Made by a program: the position numbers and the translations under genes. Under the pieces are notes generated by a model. The model was not told where the DNA came from. It did not search any database and worked only from the letters and a program-made list of their open reading frames with translations. A stretch of DNA of 64,000 bases from Limnohabitans sp. Hippo3. GTDB taxonomy: Bacteria > Pseudomonadota > Gammaproteobacteria > Burkholderiales > Burkholderiaceae_C. Shown here piece by piece: positions 27,612 to 36,628 of this stretch (position 1 is the first letter of the stretch; each line of letters starts with the position of its first letter). Where the stretch lies: NCBI RefSeq assembly GCF_003063665.1, contig NZ_NESF01000001.1, positions 868,001-932,000 on the forward strand, read 5' to 3'.

Positions 27612-27809
27612 TTACTTCTTCACTGCAGCATCCGCAGCAGCAGGCGCTGCCATGGCGACTTTGGTGCCGCCGTTGAGGTAATTTTTCACCCAGGTGGTGT
27701 TCATGGTCAGGGCCAGGTGCACGCTGAAGGACGAAATCGCCACAGCCGCAATGAACACTGGAATACCGACTGAAGGTTTCACCACGCACCACATTTTGGA
27801 ATAGATCAT
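27612..27809 (-). CDS. pucA: Light-harvesting 2 (LH2) alpha polypeptide
   Basis: 65 residues. Aligns without gaps from Met1 to Gly48 with known LH2 alpha chains: 'MWCVVKPSVGIP', His31 as bacteriochlorophyll ligand (FSVHLALTMNTTW) and an Ala-rich tail. Position 44 is Tyr as usual, but position 45 is Leu instead of an aromatic, a change in the residues that hydrogen-bond the B850 pigments. Follows pucB by 12 bases. Confidence 0.93.
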   Translation of the reverse strand: MIYSKMWCVVKPSVGIPVFIAAVAISSFSVHLALTMNTTWVKNYLNGGTKVAMAAPAAADAAVKK

Positions 27810-27821
27810 GATGTTGCTCCT

Positions 27822-27974
27822 TTATTTGAGCCAGGGTGAATAGATGTAAGCCAGCAGGTGGGCAAACGCGGCGATCATGCCGAAGATTTGCGTGCCCTGA
27901 ATGAGATTGCGGTGAATCTCTTCTGACTCGCCCTCGGTCAGTCCGGTTGGCCAGACTTTGTCTGAATTAGACAT
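27822..27974 (-). CDS. pucB: Light-harvesting 2 (LH2) beta polypeptide
   Basis: 50 residues beginning 'MSNSDKVWPTGLTEGESEEI'. His21 and His39 (AAFAHLLAYIYSPW) are the two conserved histidines; His39 with Ala35 is the B850 ligand motif. In 'LIQGTQIFG' a Gln replaces the Arg (GTR) common in LH2 beta near the B800 pigment. The ATG at 27974 has a good site (CAAGGAGAAAACC); an upstream in-frame ATG at 28010 is less likely. Confidence 0.94.
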   Translation of the reverse strand: MSNSDKVWPTGLTEGESEEIHRNLIQGTQIFGMIAAFAHLLAYIYSPWLK

Positions 27975-31325: not shown

Positions 31326-32387
31326 CTACTTGGCCGCGACTTTGGACGCAGCCAAAGCGGGTTTGAGCAACTCGGGGAAGTCCTTGGCCATGGGCGCACC
31401 GTTCAGAGGCTTGTACGCACCCTGGTGGCAGGTGGCGCAGTTGAGCTTGGCCACGTCACCCAACGGGCCCTTGCGGTGCGCCGGGAAGACTTCGGTCAAA
31501 GGCTCCATGTAGGTCAGGTTCAGGTCCCGCGCCATGCGGATGCCGTGCCAGGCCGTCACGCGTTGCGGTGGGCTGTTCTCCCAGTTCTGGAAGGACTGGG
31601 TGTTGTGGCAGTAGGTGCAGTTCACGCCCAACGAGGTCGACATGTGCGTCATCAAGCCATAGGTCCACTCGGCCTGCTTGATCGACTGGCGGTTGCCCGA
31701 TGGCAAGGCCGTGGGACCATTCACGCGGATGTTCTGCTTGTCCAGCAGGAAGGGGGTGAACGGGTCGTTGGGCAGCGAGGACAAATTGACCACCGGCGAA
31801 GGGGTGTTCTGTCCGGCCTTGTCACCGATGAAGTTCGAGCCTTGCGGCTGAGGATCAGACTTGAACCAGATGGCGTTGGGCACCGGCTCACCCCGGTGGC
31901 AGGTGTAGCAGGTCACGCCGGTCTGCGCGACGTGCGGCTGCCAGTCGGCGTTGATGTGCTGCGTCATCTCGACCATGCGCCGCGCCACCACCTTGGTGTA
32001 TTTGCTGTCGTCCTCAAAATTGGGCAAGGCATGGCAATAGCCGCAGCCTTCTTGCGGGGCCACCCAGCTGGTCATCGAGACCATCAGGCGGTTGAACTCG
32101 CCCACACTCAGATGGCCCAGCACTTTGACGTTCTTGTAGGCCTGCGCGGCCTTGGGGCCGTCCGAGCCCGGTGAAGGAATCGCCACGGGCGGTTGGTTCT
32201 TTTCGGTTTTGACTTCGAGCAGACGGGCGTTGTAGACCTGCGCCATGCCGGTGCCGCGGTAGCCGCTTTGCACCGTCTCTGGAATCGGGCGCTCGCAACC
32301 GGCGAGCACCAGGCCCACCAGTGCAAAGCCCAAACCTTGGGCCAGGCGTCTTGTCCAATGCGTTTTGTGGAGGGTGTGGGTGTTCAT
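31326..32387 (-). CDS. pufC: Reaction centre tetraheme cytochrome c subunit (lipoprotein)
   Basis: 353 residues. Lipoprotein signal ending 'LVGLVLAGC' anchors it to the periplasmic face. Four CxxCH heme sites are present: CGYCH, CYTCH, CTYCH and CATCH. It reduces the photo-oxidised special pair. The start at 32387 overlaps pufM (ATGA); the longer open frame upstream is pufM in another frame. Confidence 0.96.
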
Positions 32388-33361
32388 GGCTTGGCTCCTG
32401 TGCTCAGCGCGGGGTCCACCACCGCTGGAAAGATTTCGGGGTACGGTGGCGCCACGCCATGCTTGATGGCCCAGAGGTACCAGTTGTCCACCACGGTGCC
32501 AGTCAGCAAGATGCCGATGCCGCCGGTGATGGGGCACAGCACAGCGAACCACCAGGCCCAGCGGTGAATCGATTCCATGGTGGCGTTGAAGCCCATGGTC
32601 CAGCGCCAGAACAAGGCCGCACGTTCCGAGGCCGTACCCCGGTCAGTGATCTGCTCGATCTCGCGTTCACCACCGAAGCGGGTCACGGCCAGAATGGTCG
32701 CGCCGTGCATGGCAAACAGCAGCGCCGAGCCGTACAGGAACACGATGGACAGCGCGTGGAAGGGGTTGTAAAACAGGTTGCCGTAGCGCAACGAGAAAGC
32801 CGCCGTCCAGTCCAGGTGGGAGAAGATGCCGTAAGGCACCGCCTCACCCCAAGAACCCATCAGGATGGGGCGGAACAAACCCAGCACCAGGAACAACCAG
32901 ATGGCTGCAGCAAAAGCCCAGGCGATGTGTGTGCCCATGCCCAGCTCGACCGCGCGGCGGTAGGTGCGGGCCCACCAGAACATGACCGATGCGGTGAGGA
33001 ACAGGCCCACGATGAGGAACCAGCCACCTTGGTTGAGCGGCGGCATGCTCAGGCCGTAGCTGGGCGGTGGCGGCTCAAGCGAGAGCCAGAACAGCTGGCG
33101 CACAAACTGGATCGGGTCGTAGTTGACCGAGGCCAGCATGTTCATGCCGATCAGGGTGAAGGCGATCATGCCGAACACGAGCGAAGCCAGACCCAGACCA
33201 CCCAGGTAAATCGGGCCGAGTTGGGCATTGCCCAACTTGCCGATCCAGTAGTTAATCAGAGGCTGCCCCGTGCGCGGGCTGTTGCCGTGTCCGAGTTCCA
33301 CCCCGTGGTGGACTGGACCCACGGCTTGCACCGTGGTGAACAGGTTTTGATAGTCGGCCAT
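32384..33361 (-). CDS. pufM: Photosynthetic reaction centre M subunit
   Basis: 325 residues, five membrane helices. Opening '[20 protein letters not shown]'; pigment and iron ligand regions include '[20 protein letters not shown]' and '[18 protein letters not shown]'. Forms the core heterodimer with PufL and binds half of the special pair and QA. The gene order pufL-pufM-pufC is as in other betaproteobacterial phototrophs. Confidence 0.97.
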
Positions 33362-33408: not shown

Positions 33409-34245
33409 TCAGAGTGGCCACTGGGACCAGATCGGCATGTTCAGCCACCAGCTCCACCACTCAGGCCAACCACGGCTCCAGAAGGGGCCGCTGAGCACGA
33501 TACACAGGGCGCTGAACAACACAGCCGCCAGCGCCAGGAACAGGCCCAGGCGGTGGATGCCCAAGGTGCCGATCGAGTAGCCGATGATGTCGCGGAAGAA
33601 CGTGTCCTCGTGCTCGGGGGTCTTGACCACGGTGCCCGGTGCGGGATTGGTGGATGACAAGATCAAACCGCCGTGCAGCGACAAGGCAAACACGCTGGCG
33701 AAGAAGAAACTCACGGCGATCATGTGCGCCGGGTTGTAGTGAAAGTGCAGGTACTGGTAGCCCACGTTGGACACCCAGTCGAGGTGGCTGTAGATGCCGT
33801 ACGGAAAGCCGTGGCCCCAGGCGCCCATGAGCACCGGCCGCACGACCACCAAAGTGACATAAGCCGAGATGGCCACACCGAAGGCCACGGGCACATGAAA
33901 GCCCATGCCCAGCTTGCGGCAGATTTCGACCTCGCGCATCATCCACGAGCCGAATGCTCCGATGGCGCACACCGTGATGAGCTGCCACAGGCCGCCTTCC
34001 ATCAGGGGCGCAAAGCGCAAGCCATACGACAAGTCAGGCGGTGCGATGCTGATCTGCCAAAGGTTCCAGGTGGGCCCTTGTGAGGCACCCCACAAGATGA
34101 GGGCCGTGCCCAGGAACGAAAAGAACAGGGTTGTGACGCCGAAGAAACCGACGTAAAACGGTCCGACCCAGAAATCGAACAAATCACCACCCAGCAGGGT
34201 ACCACCGCGAACACGGTACTTTTTCTCAAAATTCAGCATGGCCAT
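33409..34245 (-). CDS. pufL: Photosynthetic reaction centre L subunit
   Basis: 278 residues, five helices. Starts '[20 protein letters not shown]', typical for PufL. Ligand helices include '[18 protein letters not shown]' and '[19 protein letters not shown]'. The ATG at 34245 follows AGGAGG by 8 bases; an in-frame ATG at 34263 lies before this ribosome site and is rejected. Confidence 0.97.
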
Positions 34246-34279
34246 GGTTGGGTCCTCCTGCATCAGTGGATCAACAGAC

Positions 34280-34307
34280 GCCGCCTTGACACGAGGTCAA
34301 TGACGGC
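34280..34307 (-). other. Intercistronic hairpin between pufA and pufL
   Basis: Imperfect stem built from GCCG...CGGC outer arms and TTGAC/GTCAA inner arms (34286-34300). In Rhodobacter a hairpin at this place protects the pufBA message from 3' decay and raises LH1 over reaction centre. No T run, so a processing or stabilising element is more likely than a terminator. Confidence 0.6.
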
Positions 34308-34328
34308 TTCTGAACGGCAAGTCCTGGA

Positions 34329-34538
34329 TCAGGACTTGGGTGCGGCGAGCGAAGCCACCGCAGTCGGCAGCGGCGAGTTTTGCGCCGATGCAGCGACGGG
34401 TTTTTTCGCACCGTCGAGCCAGTTGAATTTGTTGGTGCTGAGCAAGATGAGGTGAATCATCGCGGCCAGGCCAAACAAGAAAATGCCCTGCAGTACCATG
34501 GCACGCAATGGGTCGTAAAGTCGCCAAATTCTCCACAT
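34329..34538 (-). CDS. pufA: Light-harvesting 1 (LH1) alpha polypeptide
   Basis: 69 residues. '[20 protein letters not shown]' then the ligand helix with Ala25 and His29 ([18 protein letters not shown]); Trp40 is the usual hydrogen-bond donor to the pigment. Longer C-terminal Ala/Pro-rich tail than in Rhodobacter. AGGAGA ribosome site. Separated from pufB by an extra gene, which is unusual. Confidence 0.95.
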
Positions 34539-34548
34539 GGTGAATCTC

Positions 34549-34773
34549 CTAAATGATGTGGGACATGAAGGTGTACACCGCAGCTTTCACACCCTGACTC
34601 ATGCTCTTGGCATCTTCTGCACCGGGCAGCAGATCCCGCCAGTGAACGCCGACCAGTTTGGCCAGTACGACGACCACGAACAGACATCCGAATCCGATGA
34701 GGAAAATGGACCAGTAAGCGGGAGACTCATCCGCACGCGAATGGGCCTCGTTGAGGTGGGTTGTGTTTTGCAT
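34549..34773 (-). CDS. Unrecognised 74-residue single-pass membrane protein between pufB and pufA
   Basis: Hydrophilic start, one strong helix (residues about 20-40: '[20 protein letters not shown]'), then '[18 protein letters not shown]' and a C-terminal part ending '[10 protein letters not shown]'. ACGGAG ribosome site before the ATG; 44 bases after pufB and 10 before pufA, so it is certainly within the puf message. The His lacks the Ala-x3-His setting of bacteriochlorophyll-binding antenna peptides. PufQ and PufX are similar in size and location, but no motif ties it to either. A role in building or gating the LH1-reaction centre core is inference from position. Confidence 0.75.
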
Positions 34774-34817
34774 GACAGTGACTCCGTCAATCTATGGATG
34801 AAAAAACAGGCTCTGAA

Positions 34818-34961
34818 TCAGAACCAGGGACGCCACGCCCAGACCAGGATGTGTGCCAGCACAGCAACTGCTGTAAAGCCCACGGTGCCCTGCATCCAGT
34901 AGTGGTGGAACTCCTGGGCTTCCTCATCGGTGAGTCCGGAAATTGATGTCTTGGTGGACAT
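34818..34961 (-). CDS. pufB: Light-harvesting 1 (LH1) beta polypeptide
   Basis: 47 residues, too short for a usual length cut-off but unmistakable. '[17 protein letters not shown]' is the LH1 beta N-terminal signature; Ala33-x3-His37 in '[16 protein letters not shown]' is the pigment ligand motif, and the WxWRPW end is typical. ATG at 34961 after AGGAGCAAAAC. First gene of the puf set, 140 bases after bchZ. Confidence 0.95.
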
Positions 34962-35101: not shown

Positions 35102-36628
35102 TCATGCCGTCACCCCCAGACCCAGTTCGCGGCTGGCCGCGTTCACATGGGCTTCGGTCACCTCGCTGTGGCCTTGGGCCTGCGAGAGTTGTTCGGCCTG
35201 GTCGCGCAAGCGCTTGGCCGCTGAAATCTGCACCAGCACCGGCTGGCTTTGCACCACATCGCGCAAGCGCTGCTGGGCCTGGTCTTGCCAGCTGGCGTTG
35301 GGGGCGACCACGCCACGCGCTTGCGTGGCTTCGACTTTATCCATCTCGGTACCCAGCGGCAGGATGTGGAACAGCGCATCGAACAGCGCGTTGCACACCT
35401 CCTGGATCAGGTAGCTTGCGCCGCTGTAGCCCATGAAAGGCGTGCCGGTGTGGCGGCGGATGATCGCGCCGGGAAAGGACGCGGGAATGAAGGCCGCACG
35501 CATGGGGCTGCCGCCCGAGATTTCGCTCAGGTACATGCGCTCGTTGTAGCTGCCAAACATGATCAGCGGCGTTTGCGTTTTGACCAGTTCGCGCACGGCG
35601 GCGTTGTCCGTCTTGGTGCCCGCGGTGCGCGACACGCTGAAGCGACAGGGCAAGCCCATTTCGTTTTGGAGGAAGTTTTTCAGCCCCCGCGAATAGGTCT
35701 CGCCCGCCACCACGGCAAAACTGGCGGTGGCAAAAAAGTCTTGCGTGACCGAGCGCCACAGGTCCCACATGGGCTTGAGCGTCGTGTGCTTTTCGCGCTC
35801 GATGAAAGGCTCGGGGTCCAGGTGCAGCAACTCACCCAATTTGCGCAAAAAGTTGGTGGTGCTGTGCAGGCCAATCGGCGCTTGTAAATAAGGGCGCTCC
35901 AGCGCCTCGCACAACATGCGGCCAAACTCGCGGTACATGCAGATGTTCACATCGGCCTCGACCAGGCGCGACACATCGGCCAAGTGGCTGCCCAGCGGAA
36001 AGACCATGTTGACCTCGGCACCGATGCCTTGCACCAGGCGGCGGATCTCGGCCAGGTCGCTGGCGCTGTTGAAAGTGCCGTAGCAAGGCCCAATGATGTT
36101 GACGCGCGGCTTTTCGCCCGCCGGACGGTCTTCAAAAGGCTTGCGGGCAGGCACTTTGCGCAGACCATACTCGCTCCACAGCCAGTACATCGCGCGGTTG
36201 GCGCACTGCCACTGGTCTTCGTCGATGGTGCGTGGCAAAAAGCGGGCGATGTTGGTGCCTTCGGGCGTGACGCCGCCACCGATCATCTCGGCAATCGAGC
36301 CGGTCACCACCACCGCGGGCAACTCAGGGTCGAGTGTGGCATGAGCGCGCTTCATTGCGCCTTCGGTACCCTCACGGCCCAGTTGCTCTTCGGCCAGACC
36401 GGTCACCACAATCGGCAACTCGTGGGGCGGCAAAGCGTCGGTGTAATGCAGCACCGAGGTGACAGGCAGGTTTTCGCAGCCGACGGGGCCATCGATCACC
36501 ACCTGCAAACCCTTGATGGCGGTGAACACATACACCGCGCCCCAGTACCCGCCTGCGCGGTCATGGTCGAGGATCAGTGGCGATTTGGGCTTGGCCACGG
36601 TGCTGGGAGGAGGTGTGACCTGGTTCAT
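35102..36628 (-). CDS. bchZ: Chlorophyllide reductase subunit Z
   Basis: 508 residues, nitrogenase-like catalytic subunit that works with BchY and BchX to reduce ring B of chlorophyllide a. '[20 protein letters not shown]' and '[20 protein letters not shown]' carry the cluster-ligand region. Start overlaps the bchY stop (ATGA). In the crtEF-bchCXYZ-puf order typical of the cluster. Confidence 0.96.

Follow-up and report, generated by a model that had tools for sequence, protein, structure and literature searches.

The puf locus of Limnohabitans sp. Hippo3 raises the question of what is encoded by a small gene, ORF74, that lies between pufB and pufA, the genes for the beta and alpha chains of LH1, and what its product might do there. 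We analysed the locus within a window of 64,000 nucleotides (contig NZ_NESF01000001.1, positions 868,001 to 932,000), where the order on the minus strand is putative bchZ, pufB, ORF74, pufA, pufL, pufM and pufC (Table 1). pufB, pufA and pufL all score above the curated Pfam/NCBIfam cut-offs, and the start of pufC is our choice inside a longer GTG ORF (31326-32552). The original prediction had described a 74-codon gene with a ribosome site of its own, 44 bases behind pufB and 10 bases ahead of pufA, and had suggested that its product could be a betaproteobacterial counterpart of the small core proteins PufX, protein W and protein U. Both the coordinates and the ribosome site agree with this description. 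The observation is thus confirmed and its interpretation supported in part, while the function of ORF74 is what we infer from the comparisons below.

Table 1. Features of the puf locus in the window, and regions of the ORF74 protein
Feature	Position	Strand	Remarks
ORF74	34549..34773	-	ATG, 74 codons + TAG; 74 aa; very probably a pigment-less LH1 beta paralogue
pufB, short LH1 beta (47 aa)	34818..34961	-	NF040862, 83.3 bits; ligand His37
pufA, LH1 alpha (69 aa)	34329..34538	-	NF040861, 63.5 bits
pufL	33409..34263	-	above curated Pfam/NCBIfam cut-offs
pufM	32384..33361	-	ORF, also hit by the pufL family with a second, weaker match
pufC	31326..32387	-	four CxxCH motifs, lipoprotein-type start; read by eye
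ORF taken for bchZ	35102-36628	-	position upstream of pufB
ORF74 ribosome site GGAG	34782..34785	-	8 nt before ATG
pufA ribosome site GGAG	34546..34549	-	overlaps ORF74 TAG stop
Two RNA hairpins, pufA-pufL junction	34255..34345	-	-34.7 kcal/mol, z -3.0, 0/200 shuffles as good
ORF74 protein, membrane helix	within about residues 18-48		AlphaFold2
ORF74 protein, WR..LPGAE	residues 45-53		conserved
ORF74 protein, C-terminal helix	residues 59-73		AlphaFold2 + conservation

Conservation and context of ORF74

With the window protein as query against 5.8 billion proteins we found 89 homologous clusters (84 with a length of 74 aa), and a Rubrivivax homologue used as query gave 687 clusters at E ≤ 1, of which the best 120 of 687 are listed. 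Homologues between pufB and pufA in related phototrophs, on which the original prediction depended, are indeed present: across 80 of 141 confirmed GTDB-genome loci, pufB stands directly before the ORF74 homologue in every case (80/80), and pufA directly after it wherever the contig continues (79/79). By a lenient list of such words, an SD-like word lies at most 20 nt upstream of the homologue in 80/80 loci, and the gap of 10-18 nt to pufA carries one in 79/79. The record titles among these loci include Limnohabitans, Rubrivivax (with Rubrivivax gelatinosus), Piscinibacter, Methylibium, Hylemonella and Curvibacter; Limnohabitans supplies the nearest named records, and two of these (L002 and L003) carry the identical protein. 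Two records titled Akkermansia muciniphila (L010) and Candidatus Fonsibacter lacus (L058) hold Burkholderiales-type puf operons and are most likely mis-binned MAG contigs.

Over 33 close loci the pN/pS of ORF74 is 0.149, which shows purifying selection, and the neighbouring pufB (0.038) and pufA (0.097) are both less variable. The N-terminus is the least constrained region (0.254), followed by the tail (residues 61-74, 0.071), which the original prediction had rightly called conserved-looking, and residues 44-60 (0.044); V66, Y67 and S71 are invariant in 190/190 sequences. Given these homologues, the fixed pufB and pufA neighbours and the low pN/pS, ORF74 is not a chance ORF. Even at three loci with a divergent pufB-pufA pair (pufA 39-48 bits) the gene still lies between the two.

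ORF74 itself matches no Pfam or NCBIfam family, and 29 members of its family searched against Pfam gave no LHC, PufQ or PufX match. Where the source databases name the members at all, they use 'hypothetical protein' or, in the case of JGI, 'light-harvesting complex 1 beta chain'. The genome, 2.99 Mb in 31 contigs, yielded one copy of the gene. The ORF may have been noticed earlier in Rubrivivax.

An ORF74 is named in Roseateles depolymerans, where its locus tag (RD2015_RS05155) falls between those of pufB (RS05150) and pufA (RS05160) (PMC10037100); we liken it to the window gene by this order of tags and by a name that implies 74 codons, not by sequence. It reportedly shares a major 1-kb transcript with pufB and pufA, and according to Table 2 of that paper these three are the loci that change most under carbon starvation, while the cited part of the paper gives it neither a function nor a family (PMC10037100). 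Searching open-licence full texts, we found the gene named in PMC10037100 only, and no explanation of its nature. The same Table 2 lists a further small ORF, ORF77, which by its tag lies between pufM and pufC; in the window there is no room for it, since pufC, from its chosen start, overlaps pufM by 4 nt (32384-32387).

The two hairpins around the pufA-pufL junction, which include the stretch 34264-34328 between the two genes, form the 3' border of the pufB-ORF74-pufA segment, and hairpins of this strength would fit a stable message for these three genes. Within the segment, the overlap of the ORF74 stop with the GGAG of pufA makes translational coupling possible. A separate 7-bp hairpin (34800-34825, minus strand) is centred on the pufB stop and followed by a T run, an attenuator-like arrangement between pufB and ORF74. 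Its 3' arm lies outside the coding sequence, and among loci of the Limnohabitans type the changes there mostly exchange A-U for G-U pairs or the reverse; the hairpin is absent from more distant loci; it could set the ratio of pufB to ORF74-pufA.

Relationship of ORF74 to the LH1 beta chain

ORF74 is very probably a paralogue of the LH1 beta chain that has lost its pigment site. Profile-profile comparisons by hhalign, with E-values that refer to single comparisons, matched the ORF74 family to long-tailed beta chains of Burkholderiales (4 sequences; 99.8%, E 1.7e-27, 72 columns) and to short PufB (95.7%, E 9.3e-9), and found no match to the PufA profile; the ORF74 tail alone matched the tail of the long-tailed beta chains at E 5.9e-19. 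The score of 133.0 for the long-tailed beta compares with at most 31.3 in block-wise column shuffles (60 per pair), and that of 42.3 for short PufB with at most 27.2. Searched against the PDB, the family profile found LH1 and, more weakly, LH2 beta chains, the best being 8z81_B (E 2.9e-15), and all chains of other kinds had an E of at least 0.69. In a tree of 103 sequences the ORF74 family forms one clade (100/96) and falls into one group with all beta chains (99/94), with the PufQ types outside; at 75 columns and with long PufQ branches, the tree leaves the attachment of ORF74 among the beta chains unfixed.

The absence of the Ala-x3-His motif, noted originally, extends through all the homologues examined. 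The position of the beta ligand His is Lys39 in the window protein and K, Q, S, N, T, R, G, E or L in 307/307 distinct homologues (from clusters of 70-80 aa only), with His in none of them, and the second conserved beta His is kept in 2/190 sequences; the ligand His is retained in 16/16 long-tailed beta chains. Tested as a pigment-binding LH1 beta, ORF74 stays below the Pfam LHC and NCBIfam pufB cut-offs, and the loss of the His in 307/307 rules it out as a plain second pufB.

In its architecture ORF74 resembles the long-tailed PufB seen at four loci and in 8z81_B, which likewise has a single TM helix, then W-R..L-P-G, and a C-terminal segment that contains GVKAA, the profile match covering 72 of the 74 residues, but it differs in having no ligand His and no SGLT..EFH N-terminus and in forming its own clade. 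We read ORF74 as a paralogue of beta in which the ligand is lost and the beta-type tail is kept, whereas the neighbouring PufB of the window keeps the ligand and lacks the tail, its C-terminal end being WRPWF. Such a pair could have arisen by tandem duplication of a long-tailed beta gene, in which the upstream copy would have dropped the tail and become today's short pigment-binding PufB, and the downstream copy would have dropped the pigment, kept the tail and become ORF74. The simplest account would be that one ancestral function was split between two copies, and this offers a concrete origin for an ORF74 already in print without a function.

Distribution of ORF74, long-tailed beta chains and PufQ-type proteins

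If pufB followed directly by pufA were the normal arrangement, as had been assumed, ORF74 would be an exception among related phototrophs. We surveyed 399 genomes of Burkholderiales, 398 of the phylum and 369 of the class, which are subsets of larger groups and overlap. Forty-eight of the 399 Burkholderiales genomes have pufL, and 46 of these are assessable, the other two having contigs that end before pufB. Thirty-eight of the 46 carry ORF74, so the direct order is not the rule; in five, PufB bears a PufQ-type tail, ORF74 and PufQ both being absent; and three, all of one genus, have a PufQ-like protein encoded before pufB, with the most divergent tails. None of the 46 has two of the three kinds, and that none has zero of them follows in part from counting long-tailed beta chains as carriers; related species in this survey are not independent of one another. 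Two genomes (G052 and G181) were counted as having ORF74 with the operon split over contigs. The protein of one of them, G052, is a divergent ORF74 with a PufQ-like tail encoded behind pufB (L161 2709-3008, VRKAANSVIPLMFM), possibly an intermediate between ORF74, the tailed beta and the PufQ-type proteins.

The ORF74 profile matches 47/399 Burkholderiales genomes, of which 46 have pufL; in eight of these 46 the matched protein is a tailed PufB or a PufB/PufQ-type protein and not ORF74. The 47th match, which stands outside the 46, is a pufB-ORF74 pair at a contig end where no pufL is seen. Whole-genome profile searches found no further copy away from the puf locus among the candidates scored (for example 116 of 161 in one search and 14 per genome in another), with the exception of a single partial, stop-containing match in one genome that we take for noise; since the number of candidates scored was limited in some genomes, the lack of a further copy is not airtight.

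Within the genomes sampled, ORF74 was found in Burkholderiales only, in keeping with the prediction of a small one-helix puf protein of betaproteobacterial phototrophs. Of 32 loci outside the order none has ORF74 (0/32); PufQ or a PufQ-type protein is encoded at 23 and the remaining nine lack both, so the rule of one carrier per operon is not general. The 23 comprise ten PufQ assigned by sequence and position (two Pfam-confirmed), six PufQ-type proteins found by the ORF74 profile and then used as seeds, six more found by the seed profile and one (L159) picked out by eye. The absence of both at the other nine was likewise judged by visual inspection, which covered ORFs of at least 50 aa within 700 bases before pufB.

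Several purple bacteria encode a protein at the pufQ position, between bchZ and pufB. The tailed beta chains are themselves similar to these PufQ-position proteins (98.6%, E 5.1e-16; tail alone 4.5e-11), above shuffles, and the latter to canonical PufQ (90.5%, E 1.3e-6, above shuffles), where the tail alone gave no significant match.

Possible functions of ORF74

By descent, ORF74 is not the counterpart of PufX, protein W or protein U that had been proposed. Kinship with PufX is plausible by eye, both being small one-helix products of the puf operon with a tail, but hhalign against two Pfam-confirmed PufX sequences gave 2.3% and E 0.021. ORF74 has no Pfam match to PF11511, and a search of its own genome with this family was empty, as were the control genomes. 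PufX genes, at two loci in our set, lie after pufM, whereas ORF74 lies between pufB and pufA and pufM is followed by pufC in the window. Protein W (PufW) has three helices according to the cited part of PMC7806223, and protein U (PufY) two TM segments in a U shape according to that of PMC8564508, as against one long helix in the AlphaFold2 model of ORF74. This model, confident in the membrane helix only (single chain, mean pLDDT 64.7, about 58 in the tail), agrees with the single helix originally read from the sequence. Protein W, protein U and the gamma-like peptides are, like ORF74, small extra proteins, theirs of the LH1-RC. ORF74 might end or gate the ring as PufX or protein W do.

As ORF74 lacks the residue that holds bacteriochlorophyll and its tail is conserved, it probably serves in the structure or assembly of the photosystem and not in absorbing light. 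The conserved parts, WR..LPGAE and the C-terminal helix, are both under purifying selection. We put at about even chances a fuller reading in which ORF74 is a pigment-less twin of beta, arisen by duplication, that serves as a ring-ending or assembly-guiding subunit and docks by its tail. It would be produced together with beta and alpha, inserted, as its homology to beta suggests, in the orientation of beta with a periplasmic C-terminus, and packed against the LH1/RC assembly at a beta site or just outside it. Having neither bacteriochlorophyll nor the beta-type N-terminus, it should be unable to extend a normal alpha-beta unit, and it would act as a chain-ending or assembly-guiding subunit whose tail helix docks on a conserved partner at the periplasmic face. 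Such a beta would be a poor fit within a regular ring; a place at the ring edge, or a role in guiding assembly, seems to us most likely, and ORF74 possibly ends the ring. Amounts like those of the antenna peptides are possible, because the gene lies in the hairpin-bordered antenna segment and is placed for translation just before pufA. Since 9/32 puf loci outside Burkholderiales have neither ORF74 nor a PufQ-type protein, its job is not needed by all. The reading predicts that many betaproteobacterial phototroph cores, including that of the laboratory species Rubrivivax gelatinosus, have or use a pigment-free beta unmatched by the PDB chains searched, none of which scores like ORF74. A word search of a 2023 review of RC-LH1 structures (PMC10214105) found neither 'Rubrivivax' nor 'Betaproteobacteri...' as spelled, and our literature search found no report of ORF74 in purified RC-LH1.

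The main rival, which we consider less likely, is that ORF74 does the job of PufQ: it would then be a non-structural factor in assembly and pigment flow, binding a tetrapyrrole enzyme by the shared C-terminal helix and tying bacteriochlorophyll supply to antenna synthesis. For canonical PufQ a regulatory role is reported, not that of a ring subunit; the enzyme in Rhodobacter is ferrochelatase, and the conserved C-terminus of PufQ is proposed to touch it (cited part of PMC5725709). PufQ (PF05398) and the PufQ-position proteins share with ORF74 a small size, one helix, a conserved C-terminal tail and a place in the puf operon. The ORF74 family matches the PufQ-position proteins (14 sequences) at 98.0% and E 1.6e-13, scoring 68.7 where 60 shuffles reached no more than 20.8, and tail against tail at E 5.9e-6 (23.8, at most 12.3 in shuffles). 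A profile of eight PufQ-position proteins, built without ORF74, finds both ORF74 and the long-tailed beta chains, and the mutual exclusion of ORF74 (38), PufQ-like protein (3, one genus) and PufQ-type tail on beta (5) in the 46 genomes also fits a shared role. On the other hand, both profiles and tree place ORF74 nearer to beta than to the PufQ types, for which reason an origin from a PufQ gene relocated behind pufB is not favoured either, and the match to canonical Rhodobacteraceae PufQ (18.7%, score 21.4, shuffles up to 21.6) is not significant. PufQ and PufQ-position genes lie before pufB, whereas ORF74 is inside the abundant antenna transcript and not at the operon start. The window has no PufQ-position ORF in the stretch from 34961 to the ORF taken for bchZ (35102-36628). 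A search of the genome with PF05398 was empty, as were the control genomes, so that this search and the one with PF11511 carry little weight. A ferrochelatase feature said to mark organisms with PufQ does not separate Burkholderiales with ORF74, PufQ or a tailed beta in a comparison with 27 of 29 sequences aligned, in which the reported Rhodobacter residue was placed by eye and the two missing sequences are from genomes without PufQ or ORF74. Chidgey et al. moreover predict, in the part cited, a cytoplasmic C-terminus for PufQ, opposite to a beta-type tail.

Nor does it seem probable that ORF74 serves as an additional regular subunit of the ring, present many times per LH1 between the alpha-beta pairs like the gamma and gamma-like peptides of Blastochloris and Rhodopila, where it would tune ring stability and quinone pores. 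Its own ribosome site, the overlap of its stop with the pufA site and the 1-kb transcript shared with pufB and pufA in Roseateles would all allow near-equal amounts. Gamma-like peptides, however, run antiparallel to beta (cited part of PMC9640540), whereas the homology of ORF74 to beta favours a parallel orientation, and its tail is conserved. We give very little credence to a mainly cis-acting ORF74, which would be translated as a spacer to fix the pufB:pufA ratio while its peptide hardly matters, a role of the kind proposed for pufK of Rhodobacter in the part of the literature cited. The stop overlapping the pufA ribosome site in the window and the gap of 10-18 nt to pufA throughout the 79 loci would suit such a spacer, but the constraint is on the protein, as the pN/pS of the tail and the invariant V66, Y67 and S71 attest, and the homology to beta would be left unexplained.

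A docking subunit derived from beta may also be part of a wider pattern, although we propose this only tentatively: ORF74 and PufQ could both be pigment-less relatives of beta, members of a recurrent 'dead beta' module, with a single C-terminal helix per operon doing an important docking job in Burkholderiales, carried by a PufQ-type protein, by beta or by ORF74. If this is true, ORF74 would be a third solution, in which duplication split the antenna subunit so that the pigment stayed with one copy and the tail with the other, and an origin would be suggested for PufQ, whose role was called enigmatic before the study of Chidgey et al., according to the part of it cited.

Two further observations concern the antenna genes of the window. 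The only PF00556 matches found in the genome are pufB, pufA and a second antenna pair on the minus strand (27687-27797 and 27828-27929; 27.8 and 31.9 bits), probably LH2 puc genes. The C-terminal region of PufA contains SPLP. This agrees with [A/S]-[P/A]-[L/M/I]-P, a motif to which binding of the cytochrome subunit is ascribed in Rhodopila and other organisms (cited part of PMC9640540), and pufC is present in the window.
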